DNA of 64,000 bases from Methanolobus sp. (lineage in GTDB: Archaea; Halobacteriota; Methanosarcinia; Methanosarcinales; Methanosarcinaceae): positions 62,001 to 126,000 of the forward strand of contig JARVGJ010000002.1 in assembly GCA_029762595.1 (NCBI GenBank), read 5' to 3'. Positions within the stretch are counted from its first letter, which is position 1. Each line of letters opens with the position of its first letter. The translations under genes and the position numbers were made by a program. Positions 41,783 through 48,128 of the stretch are shown here, piece after piece. The notes below the pieces were generated by a model that did no database searches, had not been told where the DNA came from, and worked only from the letters and a program-made list of their open reading frames with translations.

Positions 41783-41984
41783 TTTTTTTCCTCTGCAAAT
41801 TTAATGTCCTCTGCAATTCAGATATACAATAATATATCCACAACAGTTACTTATAAAGTATGCGAAAACTCCATTTGGGAAATTCAGATAAGGATTTGTA
41901 TTGCCACTATTTATGGTTGTGTTTTAAAATTTTAAAATACTGAAATTTAATCACTTAGCGACACACAACTTAACTTGAATAGTT

Positions 41985-41992
41985 TAATATAT
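41985..41992 (+). promoter_or_regulatory. TATA box of the first cobD paralogue
   Basis: TAATATAT inside AGTTTAATATATCTCCT. It predicts transcription near 42014, so the frame's GTG at 41998 cannot be used. The same element precedes the second paralogue with nearly the same spacing. Confidence 0.6.
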
Positions 41993-42021
41993 CTCCTGTG
42001 CGTAACCAAGTGATGATAAGT

Positions 42022-43506
42022 GTGTACCGAAAAAATTTCCCTCTTCACCTGAAGCATTATTTGCTTGCATTACAAGCAAGGAAGCATAGCGGTAGGGCTT
42101 ATGAGTTGGCAGATAAGTACAACATAGCAGAATCAGCTATTCTTGATTTCAGTGTGATGAAAAATCCCCTGGGTACACCGTTTGATCTCAAGGTTATTGA
42201 TGTTGGAACGATCGTTTCCATGATTGGTGAAAAGTTCCTTCAGTACCCGGATAACAGATATATGGAACTGAGGGGTGCAGCTGCCGCTTTTATAGGGTAT
42301 GGTGTAACCTTTGAGAACATAGTTCCCGGGAATGGGCCATGTGAGTTATTACGTCTTGTGATGGGGGCTGTGGTGAATGAAGATGATCTGGTAATAGTTC
42401 CTTCTCCTTCAGCCGGTCAGTATCGTCATATAGCTGAGATATTCGGTGCCAGTGTGGAAGCATTTTCTCCAGGGGACTTACTACGGTTGTCAAAGATGAC
42501 ATTGGACAGAGCAAAGATCGTCATTGTTGAGAACCCTAATGATCCTACAGGTTCACTTATATCCAGGAATGAGATGTGCAGGATCGCAGAAAAATGTGCA
42601 GAACATAATACTTTGCTTATAGTTGATGAATCGTCTATAGAACTTGCCGATCCTGCTGCAAGCATCGGTGATATGGTATTGGGAAATGACCATCTTTTTG
42701 TAATAAGGTCGGTCTCAAATATCATTGGCATGCCAGGTATCAGGCTTGCATATGGTATAGCTTCAGTTCCTATGTCAGGTGTTTTGAATGCTGCCCGTCT
42801 CTCATGGAATATCGGAGCTTTTGAGGAAGCTATAGGAATCGCATTTCTGGGAATGCCAGGTGGTCCATATTGTAAATACCTCTCCGATTCCAGGTCTTTG
42901 ATCAAAAAGGAGCGCGAATTTATCACAGAACGTCTTTCAGCTATCTATGGTTTTGATCCGGTAAAGAGCAGTGCAAATTACCTGCTTGTGGATGTCATAG
43001 ACCTTTTCCTTGATTCGGTAAGGCTTACTGAAGGTCTTGCTTCACAAGGGATAATGATACGTGAATGCAGTGATTTTTTTGATGGTGAGAAGCGTTATGT
43101 AAGGATATCTGTTCGTCCCAGGGATGAATTTGAACGATTGCTGCATTCCCTTGATGAGGTATTTGCCCGTTTGAGCCGGGAAGATGCCAGAGAAAAACTC
43201 GAAGAGACCATAGAGCATGGTGGCACAACATCTGCTGGCCGGGGCTCCTGTGAATATTATCCCTGTCATTTTTGGGGTCAGGACTGCACTTTCTGTTTCT
43301 GCCCCTTTTATGCATGTGAGGATGAAAGGACTGGTGGCAGGTGGATTGCCAGTTCAACGGGAGGACAGGTATGGAGTTGCGAACACTGTAATTTATTGCA
43401 CAGACCAAAGGTCGCCAAGATCGTGCTTGATGCACTTATGGCAGACGGAGACACTGATGAGAACATAAGGAGGGCATGGAAGGATATCATTGAGCCTCTG
43501 TTTTGA
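42022..43506 (+). CDS. CobD paralogue lacking the PLP lysine (probable pseudoenzyme)
   Basis: A 494-residue relative of threonine-phosphate decarboxylase, side by side with a second copy. The fold-type-I aminotransferase pattern is intact, but the Schiff-base lysine of SLTK is Asn in SVSN (AAT at 42718-42720). Other sites also differ from the partner: GNGPCE for GNGSTE, PSPSAGQY for PRPTFSEY, PNDPTG for PNNPTG, DESS for DEAF. The C-terminal cysteine-rich domain (about eight cysteines, CEYYPCHF, CTFCFCPFYACE, SCEHC) is fully kept. The GTG at 42022 aligns with that of the second copy and fits the TATA spacing. PLP catalysis is unlikely; the metal-binding tail may still work. Confidence 0.8.
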   Translation: MYRKNFPLHLKHYLLALQARKHSGRAYELADKYNIAESAILDFSVMKNPLGTPFDLKVIDVGTIVSMIGEKFLQYPDNRYMELRGAAAAFIGYGVTFENIVPGNGPCELLRLVMGAVVNEDDLVIVPSPSAGQYRHIAEIFGASVEAFSPGDLLRLSKMTLDRAKIVIVENPNDPTGSLISRNEMCRIAEKCAEHNTLLIVDESSIELADPAASIGDMVLGNDHLFVIRSVSNIIGMPGIRLAYGIASVPMSGVLNAARLSWNIGAFEEAIGIAFLGMPGGPYCKYLSDSRSLIKKEREFITERLSAIYGFDPVKSSANYLLVDVIDLFLDSVRLTEGLASQGIMIRECSDFFDGEKRYVRISVRPRDEFERLLHSLDEVFARLSREDAREKLEETIEHGGTTSAGRGSCEYYPCHFWGQDCTFCFCPFYACEDERTGGRWIASSTGGQVWSCEHCNLLHRPKVAKIVLDALMADGDTDENIRRAWKDIIEPLF

Positions 43507-43522: not shown

Positions 43523-43532
43523 TTAAACAGGT

Positions 43533-43540
43533 TAATATAT
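43533..43540 (+). promoter_or_regulatory. TATA box of the cobD-cbiB-cobZ-cobS-cobY operon
   Basis: TAATATAT inside AGGTTAATATATTTCCT, nearly identical to the element before the first paralogue. The distance to the matching GTG is 36 nt here and 37 nt there, so promoter and gene appear to have been duplicated together. Confidence 0.6.
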
Positions 43541-43568
43541 TTCCTATTAAATACATGCTTTGATTATT

Positions 43569-45062
43569 GTGACAGACCAAAGATCACTTCTCCCGATAAA
43601 GAAATATCTTCTAAGTCTTAAGCCATGTGCACATGGCGGACTGATCAGAAAAAGTTCCCAGAGCTATGGGATACCTGAATCTGAAATACTGGATGCCAGC
43701 GCAAGCTTGAATCCTTTTGGAACACCATTTGAACAAACCTGTCCTGAACTTGATCTCCAGGAACTTCTAATGACGGGTATTGAAAAACTGGAACAGTACC
43801 CGGATAACAGATACCTGGAATATAGGAAAGCAGCCGCCGGATTTGTAGGAATGGGCATCACATGTGAGAACATTGTCCCCGGAAACGGGTCCACTGAAAT
43901 AATAAGGCTTGTTGCTGAATGTGTTATAGCAGAAGGAGATGTCGTACTTATTCCCCGTCCGACATTCAGTGAGTATGAGATGCAGTGCGGGGTCATGGGG
44001 GCACAGATCAGATATGTGGACCAGGACGAGATATTCGACCTTGAGGATGAAATTCTTGATGCGGTAAAAATGATCTTTGTGTGCAATCCCAACAACCCCA
44101 CAGGAAGACTGCACTTAAAGCAACGTATCGGGGAATTTGCAGATCGTTGTGCATCCCATAGGACAATCCTTTTTGTGGACGAGGCATTCATAGAACTGGC
44201 TGATCCTGAACAAACGGTTGCTGACCTTGTTGAGGATAATGATTATCTTTTCATCCAGCGCTCCCTTACAAAAGCCTTTGCGATACCCGGTATCAGGATG
44301 GGCTTTGGAATAGCTTCCAGTAAGTTTGCCTGTGTGCTCAACAATGCCCGGCTCTCCTGGAACATGGGATGCATCGCCGATACTGTGGCAACTGCCCTTT
44401 TGAACATGGAAGGTGGGGTTAACAGCAAATATCTTAAGGATTCCAGGGATTTCATAGCACAGGAACGTGAATTCCTCATGAATAGACTTTCACGCAGGGG
44501 TTTCAAGCCCTTTGAGAGCAGTGTGAATTATATTTTTGTGGATATATCTGAACTTTCCCTTGATTCTGCCGAACTTGCAGAACGTATGGCATCGCATGGG
44601 GTTTTGATCCGTGATTGCAGCTCTTTCCAGGATATAGGAAAGGACTACATAAGAATAGCTATTCGCAACAGACAGGAAAACGAACGTATAGCATCCACTA
44701 TCCGGCAGGTGATATACGAATGGGGACGTGAGCAGGCAAAGATGCAGCTGGAAGAGAATATAAGGGTGGCATCAAACTGTGGTAGCATGGGCAGCAATAC
44801 AGAATGTGATTATTACCCGTGCCACTTTAAAGGACAGGATTGTACCTTCTGTTTCTGTCCTTTCTATCCATGTGAGGACGCCCGTACAGGTGGCAGCTGG
44901 GTGGAAAGTTCCAGTGGTGGACAGGTATGGAGCTGCCTGAACTGCAACATAGTACATGAACAGCCGACAGTTGATGAACTCCTGTCGGTATTTACTGCAG
45001 AAGGATTAAGTGAGGAAAGTATCAGGAAGGCATGGAATAGCATTATGGAGAACCGATTATGA
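43569..45062 (+). CDS. cobD: CobD: threonine-phosphate decarboxylase with cysteine-rich C-terminal domain
   Basis: A 497-residue PLP enzyme of cobamide side-chain synthesis that makes (R)-1-amino-2-propanol phosphate. The PLP lysine is in RSLTKAFAIPGIRMGFG (AAA at 44271-44273), with GNGSTE, CNPNNPTG and VDEAFIELAD in place. The last about 90 residues hold a cysteine-rich domain (CDYYPCHF, CTFCFCPFYPCE, SCLNC). In Methanosarcina mazei the corresponding CobD is reported to be a bifunctional L-threonine kinase/decarboxylase, so the same is likely here. GTG 43569 is chosen for its match with the first paralogue; TTG 43560 is possible. It overlaps cbiB by 4 nt (ATGA). Confidence 0.9.
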   Translation: MTDQRSLLPIKKYLLSLKPCAHGGLIRKSSQSYGIPESEILDASASLNPFGTPFEQTCPELDLQELLMTGIEKLEQYPDNRYLEYRKAAAGFVGMGITCENIVPGNGSTEIIRLVAECVIAEGDVVLIPRPTFSEYEMQCGVMGAQIRYVDQDEIFDLEDEILDAVKMIFVCNPNNPTGRLHLKQRIGEFADRCASHRTILFVDEAFIELADPEQTVADLVEDNDYLFIQRSLTKAFAIPGIRMGFGIASSKFACVLNNARLSWNMGCIADTVATALLNMEGGVNSKYLKDSRDFIAQEREFLMNRLSRRGFKPFESSVNYIFVDISELSLDSAELAERMASHGVLIRDCSSFQDIGKDYIRIAIRNRQENERIASTIRQVIYEWGREQAKMQLEENIRVASNCGSMGSNTECDYYPCHFKGQDCTFCFCPFYPCEDARTGGSWVESSSGGQVWSCLNCNIVHEQPTVDELLSVFTAEGLSEESIRKAWNSIMENRL

Positions 45063-46048
45063 TTCCTCCGGTGCAGGTCGATGCAACGGAATTGCTTATC
45101 GTGCTTCTGCTGGCATATGTCCTGGACCTCGTATTCAATGAACCACCCGCATCCGTGCATCCCGTTGTATGGATGGGAAAGTTGATTTCCTTTTTCAAGA
45201 AGAATGCTCCCATGGCCCACAGGAAGCTCTATGGTATATTCATGGGGCTGTGTACCATACTATTTGGAGCTATCCTGGCCTATATTGTATTGTATTTCAT
45301 GGGAATGGAAAGTGTCCCTTCTCCATTACGCTATCTGGTTGCTGCTTATTTCCTCAAGGCAACATTTGCCATACGCTGTCTCTATGAGGCTGCAAATGAG
45401 GTACGGGCGGAAATGGATGCGGGAAATCTCGATGGTGCAAGGTCTAAACTGTCCATGTATGTAAGCAGGGACACGTCTGCACTTGATGAAGGACATATCT
45501 CCTCTGCGATAATCGAAACAACATCTGAGAACTTTGTTGATGGTATCCTTTCACCCCTTTTGTTCTACGCATGCTTTGGACCTTTTGGTTTGATAGCTGC
45601 ATATATCTTCAAGGCAACAAGCACCCTTGACTCCATGGTAGGTTACAAGGATGAGCGCCACAGGGAAATAGGCTGGTTCTCCGCAAGGTTTGACGATGTG
45701 CTTAACTGGGTGCCTGCCCGCTTGTCATTGTTTTTCATTTTCGCAGCAACCTTGCTTATCAGGCTATTCTACAGGGGACCAAAAAGAGTGGATCCAATAT
45801 GTTCTTTAAGGAGTGGTTTTGCTGAAGGTTTGAAAACACCGTCCCCAAACTCAGGGTATCCAATGGCTTCAGTAGCCGGAGCCCTTGGGGTGAAACTTGA
45901 AAAACCGGGTACATATGTGCTGGGAAGGGATTTTGTTTATCCTGTCTCAGAAGATATAAAAGTGACTTCATGGATAATACTTATAGCATCGTTATTTACT
46001 ATAATCATATCTTCAATTATAATACTGATCTGGTCTATACAGACCTGA
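45059..46048 (+). CDS. cbiB: Adenosylcobinamide-phosphate synthase CbiB
   Basis: A 329-residue membrane enzyme that attaches the aminopropanol phosphate made by CobD to adenosylcobyric acid. Family motifs are DLVFNEPPASVHPVVWMG near residue 20, SMYVSRDTSALDEGHISSAIIETTSENFVDG (in parts) near 130-160, and PNSGYPMASVAGALGVKLEKPG near 265. Four to five hydrophobic segments are seen. Its ATG overlaps the cobD stop (ATGA), so translation is coupled with that of its substrate-providing enzyme. Confidence 0.94.
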   Translation: MIPPVQVDATELLIVLLLAYVLDLVFNEPPASVHPVVWMGKLISFFKKNAPMAHRKLYGIFMGLCTILFGAILAYIVLYFMGMESVPSPLRYLVAAYFLKATFAIRCLYEAANEVRAEMDAGNLDGARSKLSMYVSRDTSALDEGHISSAIIETTSENFVDGILSPLLFYACFGPFGLIAAYIFKATSTLDSMVGYKDERHREIGWFSARFDDVLNWVPARLSLFFIFAATLLIRLFYRGPKRVDPICSLRSGFAEGLKTPSPNSGYPMASVAGALGVKLEKPGTYVLGRDFVYPVSEDIKVTSWIILIASLFTIIISSIIILIWSIQT

Positions 46049-46081: not shown

Positions 46082-46690
46082 ATGGCAATGAAATTATCGG
46101 ATATAGAATCAAATGACCTGAAAAAGAACCAATCAAAAGAATTGGAAGGTGAGGTTACCAGGGATATAATAGATATTCTTGAAGAAGAAGGAATTACCGT
46201 CCGGATGCTCGTTGATACTGCACTGGAGCTGTATGCCCCGCACCCGGGACTGGAAACAAAGGAACTTGCAGAGGAGAGATTTCTTTCAGAATTGGATATT
46301 GCCCTGTCCGATCCAAACCTCTGTCTGCTCATCTATTCCGGGATACTGCTTGAAAAAGAAGGTCGTGATGGCAGATTACCCAATATCAGCAAAAGTTCCT
46401 ATGAAAAAGACCTGACGTTCATAATAGCAGATGAGGTACTTGGAATGAGCATATCCAAATATATCAGTGGTGACAAAGGCATGTTCGAATTTGTACGCTT
46501 TGACAAACAAAAGCCAGGTATACTCGCCAAACTTGGTCCCTTCATGGATGATATAATAGGTGGGCTCGTTGGAGGTGTTTCTGCCAATATGTACACAAGG
46601 GCTATGGCAGAGGCAGCAGGTACTTCAGGTAAGAGCAGTAAAAAAGAAAAAAAAGAACCTCAGATCAAGAGTGATGTGATAGCAGGATGA
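46082..46690 (+). CDS. cobZ: Alpha-ribazole phosphatase CobZ
   Basis: A 202-residue phosphatase that in Methanosarcina mazei replaces CobC by dephosphorylating alpha-ribazole phosphate. The sequence resembles the PgpA/CobZ group (VTRDIIDILEEEGITVRMLVDTALELY, LIYSGILLEKEG, DEVLGMSISKYISG), and the position between cbiB and cobS is the same as I recall for M. mazei. A hydrophobic segment near residue 155-170 (DDIIGGLVGGVSANMY) and a lysine-rich tail end it. The start could be ATG 46082 or 46088. Its stop overlaps cobS in ATGA. Confidence 0.88.
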   Translation: MAMKLSDIESNDLKKNQSKELEGEVTRDIIDILEEEGITVRMLVDTALELYAPHPGLETKELAEERFLSELDIALSDPNLCLLIYSGILLEKEGRDGRLPNISKSSYEKDLTFIIADEVLGMSISKYISGDKGMFEFVRFDKQKPGILAKLGPFMDDIIGGLVGGVSANMYTRAMAEAAGTSGKSSKKEKKEPQIKSDVIAG

Positions 46691-47511
46691 ACGCATTCTT
46701 ACTGGCCCTTCGTTCAAGTTTTGGATTCCTTTCAACCATTCCTGTGGGAATTTCCATGGAGGGACTGGATGAGTTTTTCAAGAGGACCTACCTGCATCTT
46801 GTAGTGGGCATAGTCCTTGGTCTTATTATGGGGGCTGTGGCCTATGTACTTGTAAGTTATGTGTCTGCTCCGATTGCTGTAGTACTGCTAATTGCTTTTG
46901 TCTATTATATTACCGGTCTTAATCACCTCGATGGCATGGCAGACCTGGGCGACGGGCTGACTGCCCATGGATCTGTAGAGAAGAAGCTCAAAGCCCTCAA
47001 GGATATGTCCCTGGGTATTGGAGGAGTTGCTTATGCTGCCCTCACAATAATAGCATTCTATGCTGTCCTGATATCACTTTATAATGAGGCTTCGGTTGTC
47101 TACACAAATACTGTTGATGTAGCCCGCATATTCTTCTTTGCGATGTTCATTTCGGAAGTAAGTGCAATGCAGTCAATGCTGACTATCGCTGCATTTGGGA
47201 AATCGATACATGAAGGTCTGGGTTCTATACTTATTAAAAATACCACCGTATCTAAATACCTTATAGGCTTTGTAATTGGTAGTATTGCGTGTACTGGAGC
47301 ATCTATGTACCTGGGTTTCGGGCTTTTGACCGGTATCCTTGCATTTGTGGCTTCTATCGTTGCAACACTGATATTGCTGAATGTGAGCAACAGGCATTTT
47401 GGCGGTGTGAATGGTGATGTCATCGGCGCTTCAAATGAGATTGGCAGAATAATAGCTTTGATAACTATCACACTGGTACTAATGTACGGAGGTATTGTTT
47501 GGACTCTATAA
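46687..47511 (+). CDS. cobS: Cobalamin (5'-phosphate) synthase CobS
   Basis: A 274-residue polytopic membrane enzyme that condenses adenosylcobinamide-GDP with alpha-ribazole or its phosphate, the last step of nucleotide-loop assembly. It begins SSFGFLSTIPVGI after the start and has the motif TGLNHLDGMADLGDGLTAHGS near residue 77-97, typical of CobS. About seven membrane helices follow. It overlaps cobZ at the 5' end by 4 nt and cobY at the 3' end by 13 nt. Confidence 0.94.
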   Translation: MNAFLLALRSSFGFLSTIPVGISMEGLDEFFKRTYLHLVVGIVLGLIMGAVAYVLVSYVSAPIAVVLLIAFVYYITGLNHLDGMADLGDGLTAHGSVEKKLKALKDMSLGIGGVAYAALTIIAFYAVLISLYNEASVVYTNTVDVARIFFFAMFISEVSAMQSMLTIAAFGKSIHEGLGSILIKNTTVSKYLIGFVIGSIACTGASMYLGFGLLTGILAFVASIVATLILLNVSNRHFGGVNGDVIGASNEIGRIIALITITLVLMYGGIVWTL

Positions 47512-48128
47512 TAATGGCAGGTGGATTTGGAAGCAGACTTGGAATGGGGGAAAAACCATGTGTGGGGTTACTTGGAAAACCTCTTATATCGTATGTTATC
47601 GAAACACTGCAGATGACCGAAAGTATTGATGATATATATGTTGCAGTGTCCCCTGCGACCCCACAAACAGCATCATTTGTCAGAAATGAATATGTTGATA
47701 AAGTAAAAGTAATACCAACTGGCGGGGGCAATTATGTAGGGGATATGGTATATGCAGTGAAGACAGCAGGAATCAAGGATCCGCTTATGATCCTCATGGC
47801 CGATCTCCCTCTTCTGACACCCGTTCTCCTTGAAAGGGTGATAGAAGAGTACAAGGAATGCGGCAAACCGGCAATGTCTATATTCTCTCCCATATCCGTC
47901 TGTAAAAGTCTGGGTATCAGGCCTGATACTGTCTTTAACTGGGATGGTAAGCTAATAGTGCCATCAGGTATCAACATACTGGATGGAAGTGATGTTGAAC
48001 ATGAGCAGGAATATGTCAGCCTCGTTCTGAAAAATATCGAGATTGCTCTTAATGTCAATACTCCCAATGATCTTCAACGCTGTAAGGAAATGCTTCTTGA
48101 AAGGAAATCAGGAGCAATAAAGAACTGA
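47499..48128 (+). CDS. cobY: Adenosylcobinamide-phosphate guanylyltransferase CobY
   Basis: A 209-residue nucleotidyltransferase that activates adenosylcobinamide phosphate with GTP; CobY is the archaeal replacement of CobU. The N-terminal loop IIMAGGFGSRLGMGEKP binds GTP, and LMADLPLLTP near residue 108 carries the metal-binding Asp. It starts with TTG, supported by a strong GGAGGT 6 nt upstream inside cobS. It is the last gene of the operon; a gene-free stretch follows. Confidence 0.93.
   Translation: MDSIIMAGGFGSRLGMGEKPCVGLLGKPLISYVIETLQMTESIDDIYVAVSPATPQTASFVRNEYVDKVKVIPTGGGNYVGDMVYAVKTAGIKDPLMILMADLPLLTPVLLERVIEEYKECGKPAMSIFSPISVCKSLGIRPDTVFNWDGKLIVPSGINILDGSDVEHEQEYVSLVLKNIEIALNVNTPNDLQRCKEMLLERKSGAIKN

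Follow-up and report, generated by a model that had tools for sequence, protein, structure and literature searches.

The window, the whole 64,000-nucleotide stretch of DNA that we analysed, carries a nucleotide-loop-assembly cluster whose first gene encodes a CobD paralogue without the PLP lysine, followed by canonical cobD and then cbiB-cobZ-cobS-cobY (Table 1). The initial annotation described two full-length CobD proteins in tandem. Indeed, both exceed the Pfam cut-offs for PF00155 and PF04071, the paralogue matching PF00155 with 107.8 bits (cut-off 19.7) and PF04071 with 84.3 bits. The frame proposed for the paralogue, 42022-43506 on the forward strand, is open over 494 codons as reported and encodes the full-length two-domain product, though it probably begins slightly upstream. 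Relatives conserve residues 5′ of 42022, and the spacing from the TATA-like element to the ATG at 42013 is 30 nt, compared with 29 nt for the canonical gene; this suggests that ATG 42013 is a likelier start than GTG 42022.

Table 1. Positions of the cobD tandem, its promoter elements and the downstream cluster genes in the window
Feature	Position	Strand	Evidence
Promoter element CAACTNAACTTGAATANNTTAATATA, overlapping TATA-like TTTAATATAT (41983-41992)	41966..41991	+	Pattern search of genomes
Lys-less CobD paralogue	42013..43506	+	ORF, translation, N-terminal conservation 5′ of 42022, Pfam PF00155 and PF04071
AAT codon, Asn233 in RSVSNII, replacing the PLP Schiff-base lysine	42718..42720	+	Alignment with S. 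enterica CobD (Lys216)
Cysteine-rich C-terminal domain of the paralogue (PF04071 zf-like), 8 Cys	43246..43443	+	Pfam; 29/29 invariants of Lys+ CobDs
TATA-like GTTAATATAT 5′ of canonical cobD	43531..43540	+	Consensus resemblance only
Canonical CobD (threonine-phosphate decarboxylase), PLP lysine codon AAA 44271-44273, zf-like C-domain	43560..45062	+	TIGR01140, 293 bits, above cut-off
cbiB (adenosylcobinamide-phosphate synthase)	45059..46048	+	TIGR00380 above cut-off
cobZ (alpha-ribazole phosphatase)	46085..46690	+	TIGR03161 above cut-off
cobS	46687..47511	+	TIGR00317 above cut-off
cobY-like guanylyltransferase	47499..48128	+	NF045495 and TIGR00454 below their cut-offs; cluster position

The promoter element in front of the paralogue was searched for, with up to 2 mismatches allowed, in 18 Methanolobus genomes and 9 genomes of other families. 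It occurred once per genome, with 0 mismatches and directly 5′ of the paralogue, in all 18 Methanolobus genomes; it was absent from the 9 other-family genomes, and a reversed-pattern control gave 0 matches. Part of the element is similar to the canonical cobD promoter of the sister genus g25, and for this reason it may be an ancestral promoter of the cluster.

To place the missing lysine, we aligned the tandem proteins with S. enterica CobD, whose Lys216 is the Schiff-base lysine. The corresponding residue is Lys238 in the RSLTKAF of the canonical copy and asparagine in the paralogue. The AAT codon is as first read from the DNA, and the pocket differences pointed out along with it (GNGPCE, PSPSAGQY, DESS) were quoted correctly. 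The canonical protein passes the NCBIfam CobD equivalog TIGR01140 (cut-off 290.55 bits), and the paralogue fails it with 208 bits. Profile and fold both place the paralogue in the fold-type-I PLP aminotransferase superfamily (PF00155). The core of its AlphaFold model matches HisC and CobD structures; built from 11 sequences, the model is moderate (mean pLDDT 64), with low confidence in the C-domain, and no claims about the pocket or the interface were drawn from it. Since the paralogue falls short of the equivalog cut-off and has no Schiff-base lysine, we do not file it as a CobD decarboxylase; by its sequence it is a pseudoenzyme, paralogous to a PLP enzyme: a "pseudo-CobD."

The losses are concentrated in one half of the protein. 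As invariants we took the columns with an identity of 95% or more across 72 Lys+ CobDs, 97 in all, 68 in the PLP part and 29 in the C-part. The Methanolobus paralogue keeps 44/68 and 29/29 of them, and the g25 paralogue 41/68 and 28/29. All 8 cysteines of the C-domain are common to paralogue and canonical copy, in line with the early remark that every cysteine block is conserved. No Lys-less group retains the lysine, the ring-stacking Phe of the PLP pocket (Phe136 in the canonical copy), or the Ala that follows the PLP Asp-Glu (Ala209). The Ala is replaced by Ser in 41 and by Thr in 2 of 43 Lys-less proteins, a convergent change. Retained in all 27 Methanolobus paralogues are Tyr75, the RLSWN loop (R259-N263), Asp202, Ser230, Arg241, Arg347, Arg361, and the second Gly of the GNG loop. 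The two substrate arginines (Arg323 and Arg337 of S. enterica CobD) are present in 27/27, and the latter, equivalent to Arg361, is found in each of the 43 Lys-less CobDs of the family. By the roles known for the fold-type-I enzymes, this arginine would bind the substrate carboxylate, and in a dimer Tyr75 and the loop would reach into the active site of the partner subunit.

The paralogue is a constant companion of canonical cobD. It is present in tandem in 27/27 Methanolobus genomes, M. vulcani and M. psychrotolerans among them, and in 6/6 genomes of g25. At the lysine position, Methanolobus has N in 24 genomes and R, D, and G in 1 each, and g25 has H in all 6. Of the substitutions that the initial annotation drew attention to, the loss of lysine is therefore conserved in 33/33, while Asn itself is found in 24/27 Methanolobus copies; the locus has kept its lysine in none of the relatives (0/33 orthologues). 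In a 64-row mixture-model tree, a single clade (100/99) unites the Methanolobus and g25 paralogues and mirrors the canonical copies, and the lysine was therefore lost before these genera split.

We then considered selection, using pairwise Nei-Gojobori dN/dS computed with our own script. Across 40 close pairs, the paralogue had values of 0.08-0.16 and the canonical copy values of 0.04-0.12. By region, in 27 pairs, the median for the PLP part was 0.116 (range, 0.085-0.183) in the paralogue versus 0.055 in the canonical copy, and for the C-part 0.073 versus 0.069. The PLP fold of the paralogue is thus about two-fold relaxed yet constrained, and in the cysteine domain no relaxation can be measured. 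Frameshifts in close strains would have spoken for decay, and 26 of 27 Methanolobus copies are intact. The exception is the paralogue of genome G014 (L037), in which an extra A in an A-run causes a frameshift, with TGA and TAG stops in the first ~25 codons; its dN/dS is ordinary despite this damage, and the break is either recent or the sign of a shortened N-terminus. With values of 0.08-0.18, far from 1, the lysine lost in every orthologue, and the C-domain invariants complete, the original judgement that this is not simple decay is upheld, one damaged copy aside. The lysine-less paralogue is real and conserved.

A comparison with nine single-copy CobDs of the family shows how the two copies have diverged. 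Counting conserved columns lost in one copy only, and lost in both genera, we found 22 for the paralogue against 2 for the canonical copy in the PLP part; in the C-part the numbers were 0 and 4 (Fisher p = 7e-4). A stricter threshold gave 20:0 and 0:2 (p = 0.004), leaving two C-domain columns. The four C-part columns lost in the canonical copy only are R407, D470, M473, and D477. Mean identity to the single-copy CobDs follows the same division: 0.42 for the paralogue and 0.55 for the canonical copy in the PLP part, and 0.55 and 0.50 in the C-part. This reciprocal pattern resembles subfunctionalisation, such as a division of labour would leave, with the reservation that the columns are non-independent, that each copy contributes one ancestral branch, and that the C-part counts are small.

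Lysine-less copies also turned up elsewhere. In genus g8 (8 genomes), the second CobD likewise has no lysine (D, T, Y, or N at this position), and in the tree it clusters with second copies that are Lys+ in other genera. Grouping the g8 Lys-less copies with the Methanolobus/g25 paralogues is rejected by the AU test (p = 0.022), a result to be read with caution given the long branches and a group defined after the tree was seen. With the same caution, a single origin is rejected for these groups; by this test g8 lost the lysine separately, and CobD lost it more than once. In the three g8 loci that we inspected, the Lys-less copy heads cbiB-cobZ-cobS-cobY and the Lys+ copy lies ~20-26 kb away. 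The g8 copies do not have the C-domain signature residues seen in the Methanolobus paralogue. Two third copies, solitary, highly divergent, and also Lys-less CobD-zf proteins, occur in M. vulcani B1d (L080:3660-5168), where the gene adjoins an RNase HII-like gene, and in genome G095 (L081:3442-4887).

Outside the family, a Lys-less CobD-zf of 30% identity (SLSNSF; L150:7267-8631) is encoded in genome G244. Duplicated full-length pairs of CobD-zf were seen in this family only, in a sample of 296 genomes of the phylum. We found no Lys+ CobD and no CbiB in G244, and the domain must therefore serve another role there. The gene lies near an ABC transporter that is BtuCD/FecCD-like by appearance, without confirmation by profile search. 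In a sister genome of G244, all that is left at the same place is a protein of 155 residues that contains the zf-like part (L152:1471-1938). PF04071 is also found fused to CbiZ, the adenosylcobinamide amidohydrolase, in several families (L116, L118), fused to a GDPD-type phosphodiesterase in one other (L119, L120), and standing alone, which suggests a module common to corrinoid enzymes. The paralogue has this same archaeal cysteine module, here joined to a CobD that appears PLP-dead.

Compared with CobD as represented by TIGR01140 and the S. enterica structures 1LC5 and 1LKC, the paralogue is alike in fold, in alignment over the whole PLP part, and in the YPD, GNG, Asp, RS, GIR, and carboxylate-Arg motifs; it differs in the missing Schiff-base lysine, in the replaced Phe and following Ala, and in its sub-cut-off score. 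Another related system is the CobD of M. mazei (MM2060), reportedly characterised by Tavares and colleagues in 2018 as a bifunctional decarboxylase and threonine kinase. The paralogue shares the two-domain architecture of this single-copy type, and the C-domain of that type is closer to the paralogue's than to that of the canonical Methanolobus copy; unlike MM2060, however, the paralogue is predicted to be incapable of PLP-dependent decarboxylation. Our literature searches turned up no Lys-less CobD. In archaeal cobamide synthesis the threonine kinase step has been assigned poorly; for Haloferax, EC 2.7.1.177 was still among the pathway gaps in a review of 2021 (PMC8305020). The paralogue bears on this gap. 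It amounts to a natural separation-of-function mutant, through which one can ask how the tasks of bifunctional CobD are divided between its halves, where its kinase site lies, and what purpose the cysteine-rich domain serves.

We propose the following history. An ancestral methanogen CobD that joined a cysteine-rich C-domain to a PLP decarboxylase site would have been duplicated. The decarboxylase site for threonine phosphate would have stayed in the downstream copy. In the upstream copy the PLP chemistry, with its lysine, ring-stacking Phe, and pocket Ala, would have been dropped, with strong selection preserving the C-domain and the substrate-carboxylate Arg. The paralogue would then perform the non-decarboxylase, C-domain-dependent half of aminopropanol phosphate supply to CbiB. 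The likeliest task is phosphorylation of L-threonine, a link drawn because M. mazei CobD is said to be bifunctional, or else gating of the canonical enzyme. It could act by itself or as a partner of canonical CobD in a mixed oligomer, since the residues that reach the partner's site in fold-type-I dimers are retained; Tyr75 and the RLSWN loop of the paralogue might complete the partner's active site, as the Lys-less LCB1 subunit probably does in serine palmitoyltransferase. The overall proposal, a PLP-dead CobD with a C-domain-dependent role in the kinase step or in gating, we hold about as readily as we doubt it. The conserved C-domain and the likeness to single-copy CobDs favour such a role over a bare scaffold. 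Of the functions offered initially, a regulatory subunit, a scaffold, and a free-standing threonine-kinase or metal-binding unit, the sequence does not single out one. Part of a bifunctional CobD appears to have split off into a separate protein. A more specific version is doubtful but worth stating: an archaeal L-threonine kinase devoted to cobamide synthesis, or a subunit of one, might have arisen from a cofactor-losing PLP decarboxylase, the bifunctional enzyme being split repeatedly in one methanogen family. Several points weigh against the proposal. We identified no ATP-binding motif in the paralogue; the g8 copies depart from its C-domain signature, and G244 has a Lys-less CobD-zf outside this pathway. 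The genome encodes 4 GHMP kinases and may contain another threonine kinase.

The most serious competitor, though in our estimate an unlikely one, is an obligate non-catalytic subunit whose one function is to join canonical CobD in a heterodimer and so to stabilise or regulate it in the manner of LCB1 or a prozyme, with no kinase role. The paralogue has lost its own Lys, Phe, and Ala and kept Tyr75 and R259-N263, partner-contacting positions in fold-type-I dimers, in 27/27, and within the family a Lys+ copy always accompanies it, adjacent in Methanolobus and g25. There is also a precedent, the nearest in mechanism: the LCB1 (SPTLC1) subunit of serine palmitoyltransferase is likewise a Lys-less fold-type-I homologue beside a Lys-bearing paralogue (PMC3794620). 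The CobD heterodimer is putative, and the CobD paralogue belongs to another enzyme family than LCB1 and has an extra cysteine-rich domain. Against an obligate subunit, the most constrained part is the C-domain and not the PLP fold. Moreover, the Tyr75 equivalent is Phe or Ser in most g8 copies and in both third copies, where the loop is largely lost as well, so the retention of partner residues is not general for Lys-less copies.

That the cysteine-rich domain alone matters, as a carrier or sensor binding metal or corrinoid on a passive PLP scaffold, seems quite unlikely to us. The various fusions of PF04071 and its stand-alone form fit such a role, as do the G244 protein, which persists without CbiB or Lys+ CobD, its sister species with the zf-like part only, and the presence of most C-domain invariants in all Lys-less groups. 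The Methanolobus PLP part, however, is under strong purifying selection (omega ~0.12) and retains the substrate arginines, and in this genus the PLP fold is therefore not a passive scaffold. Could that fold still hold PLP non-covalently or carry out other PLP chemistry? The residues by which CobD holds PLP (Asp202, Ser230, Arg241, and the second GNG glycine) are all present in the Methanolobus copies and would allow it, but we consider it improbable: the residues that sandwich the ring are replaced in all Lys-less groups, g25 has no Arg for the PLP phosphate, and the lysine position is variable. The pocket contains no other conserved lysine at a plausible PLP position, which disposes of PLP bound through a different lysine, an outcome that would have undone the initial annotation. 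A slowly decaying duplicate has the least to recommend it, and we give it hardly any credence. It would accommodate the broken G014 copy and the relaxed PLP part, but not the intact reading frames and low dN/dS of the remaining copies, maintenance since before the split of two genera, or the unrelaxed C-domain.

Two further arrangements came to light in the survey. Family f3 has a Lys+ CobD of ~380-390 aa without the C-domain and a separate ~190-aa protein (L112:1365-1949, L114) that consists of the end of the small domain and the zf-like domain, a natural split of CobD. Genome G017 contains an extra Lys+ CobD fragment (G017:C87:2011-3258) that is 84% identical to the canonical copy of the window and unlike G017's own; it is probably contamination of the MAG.
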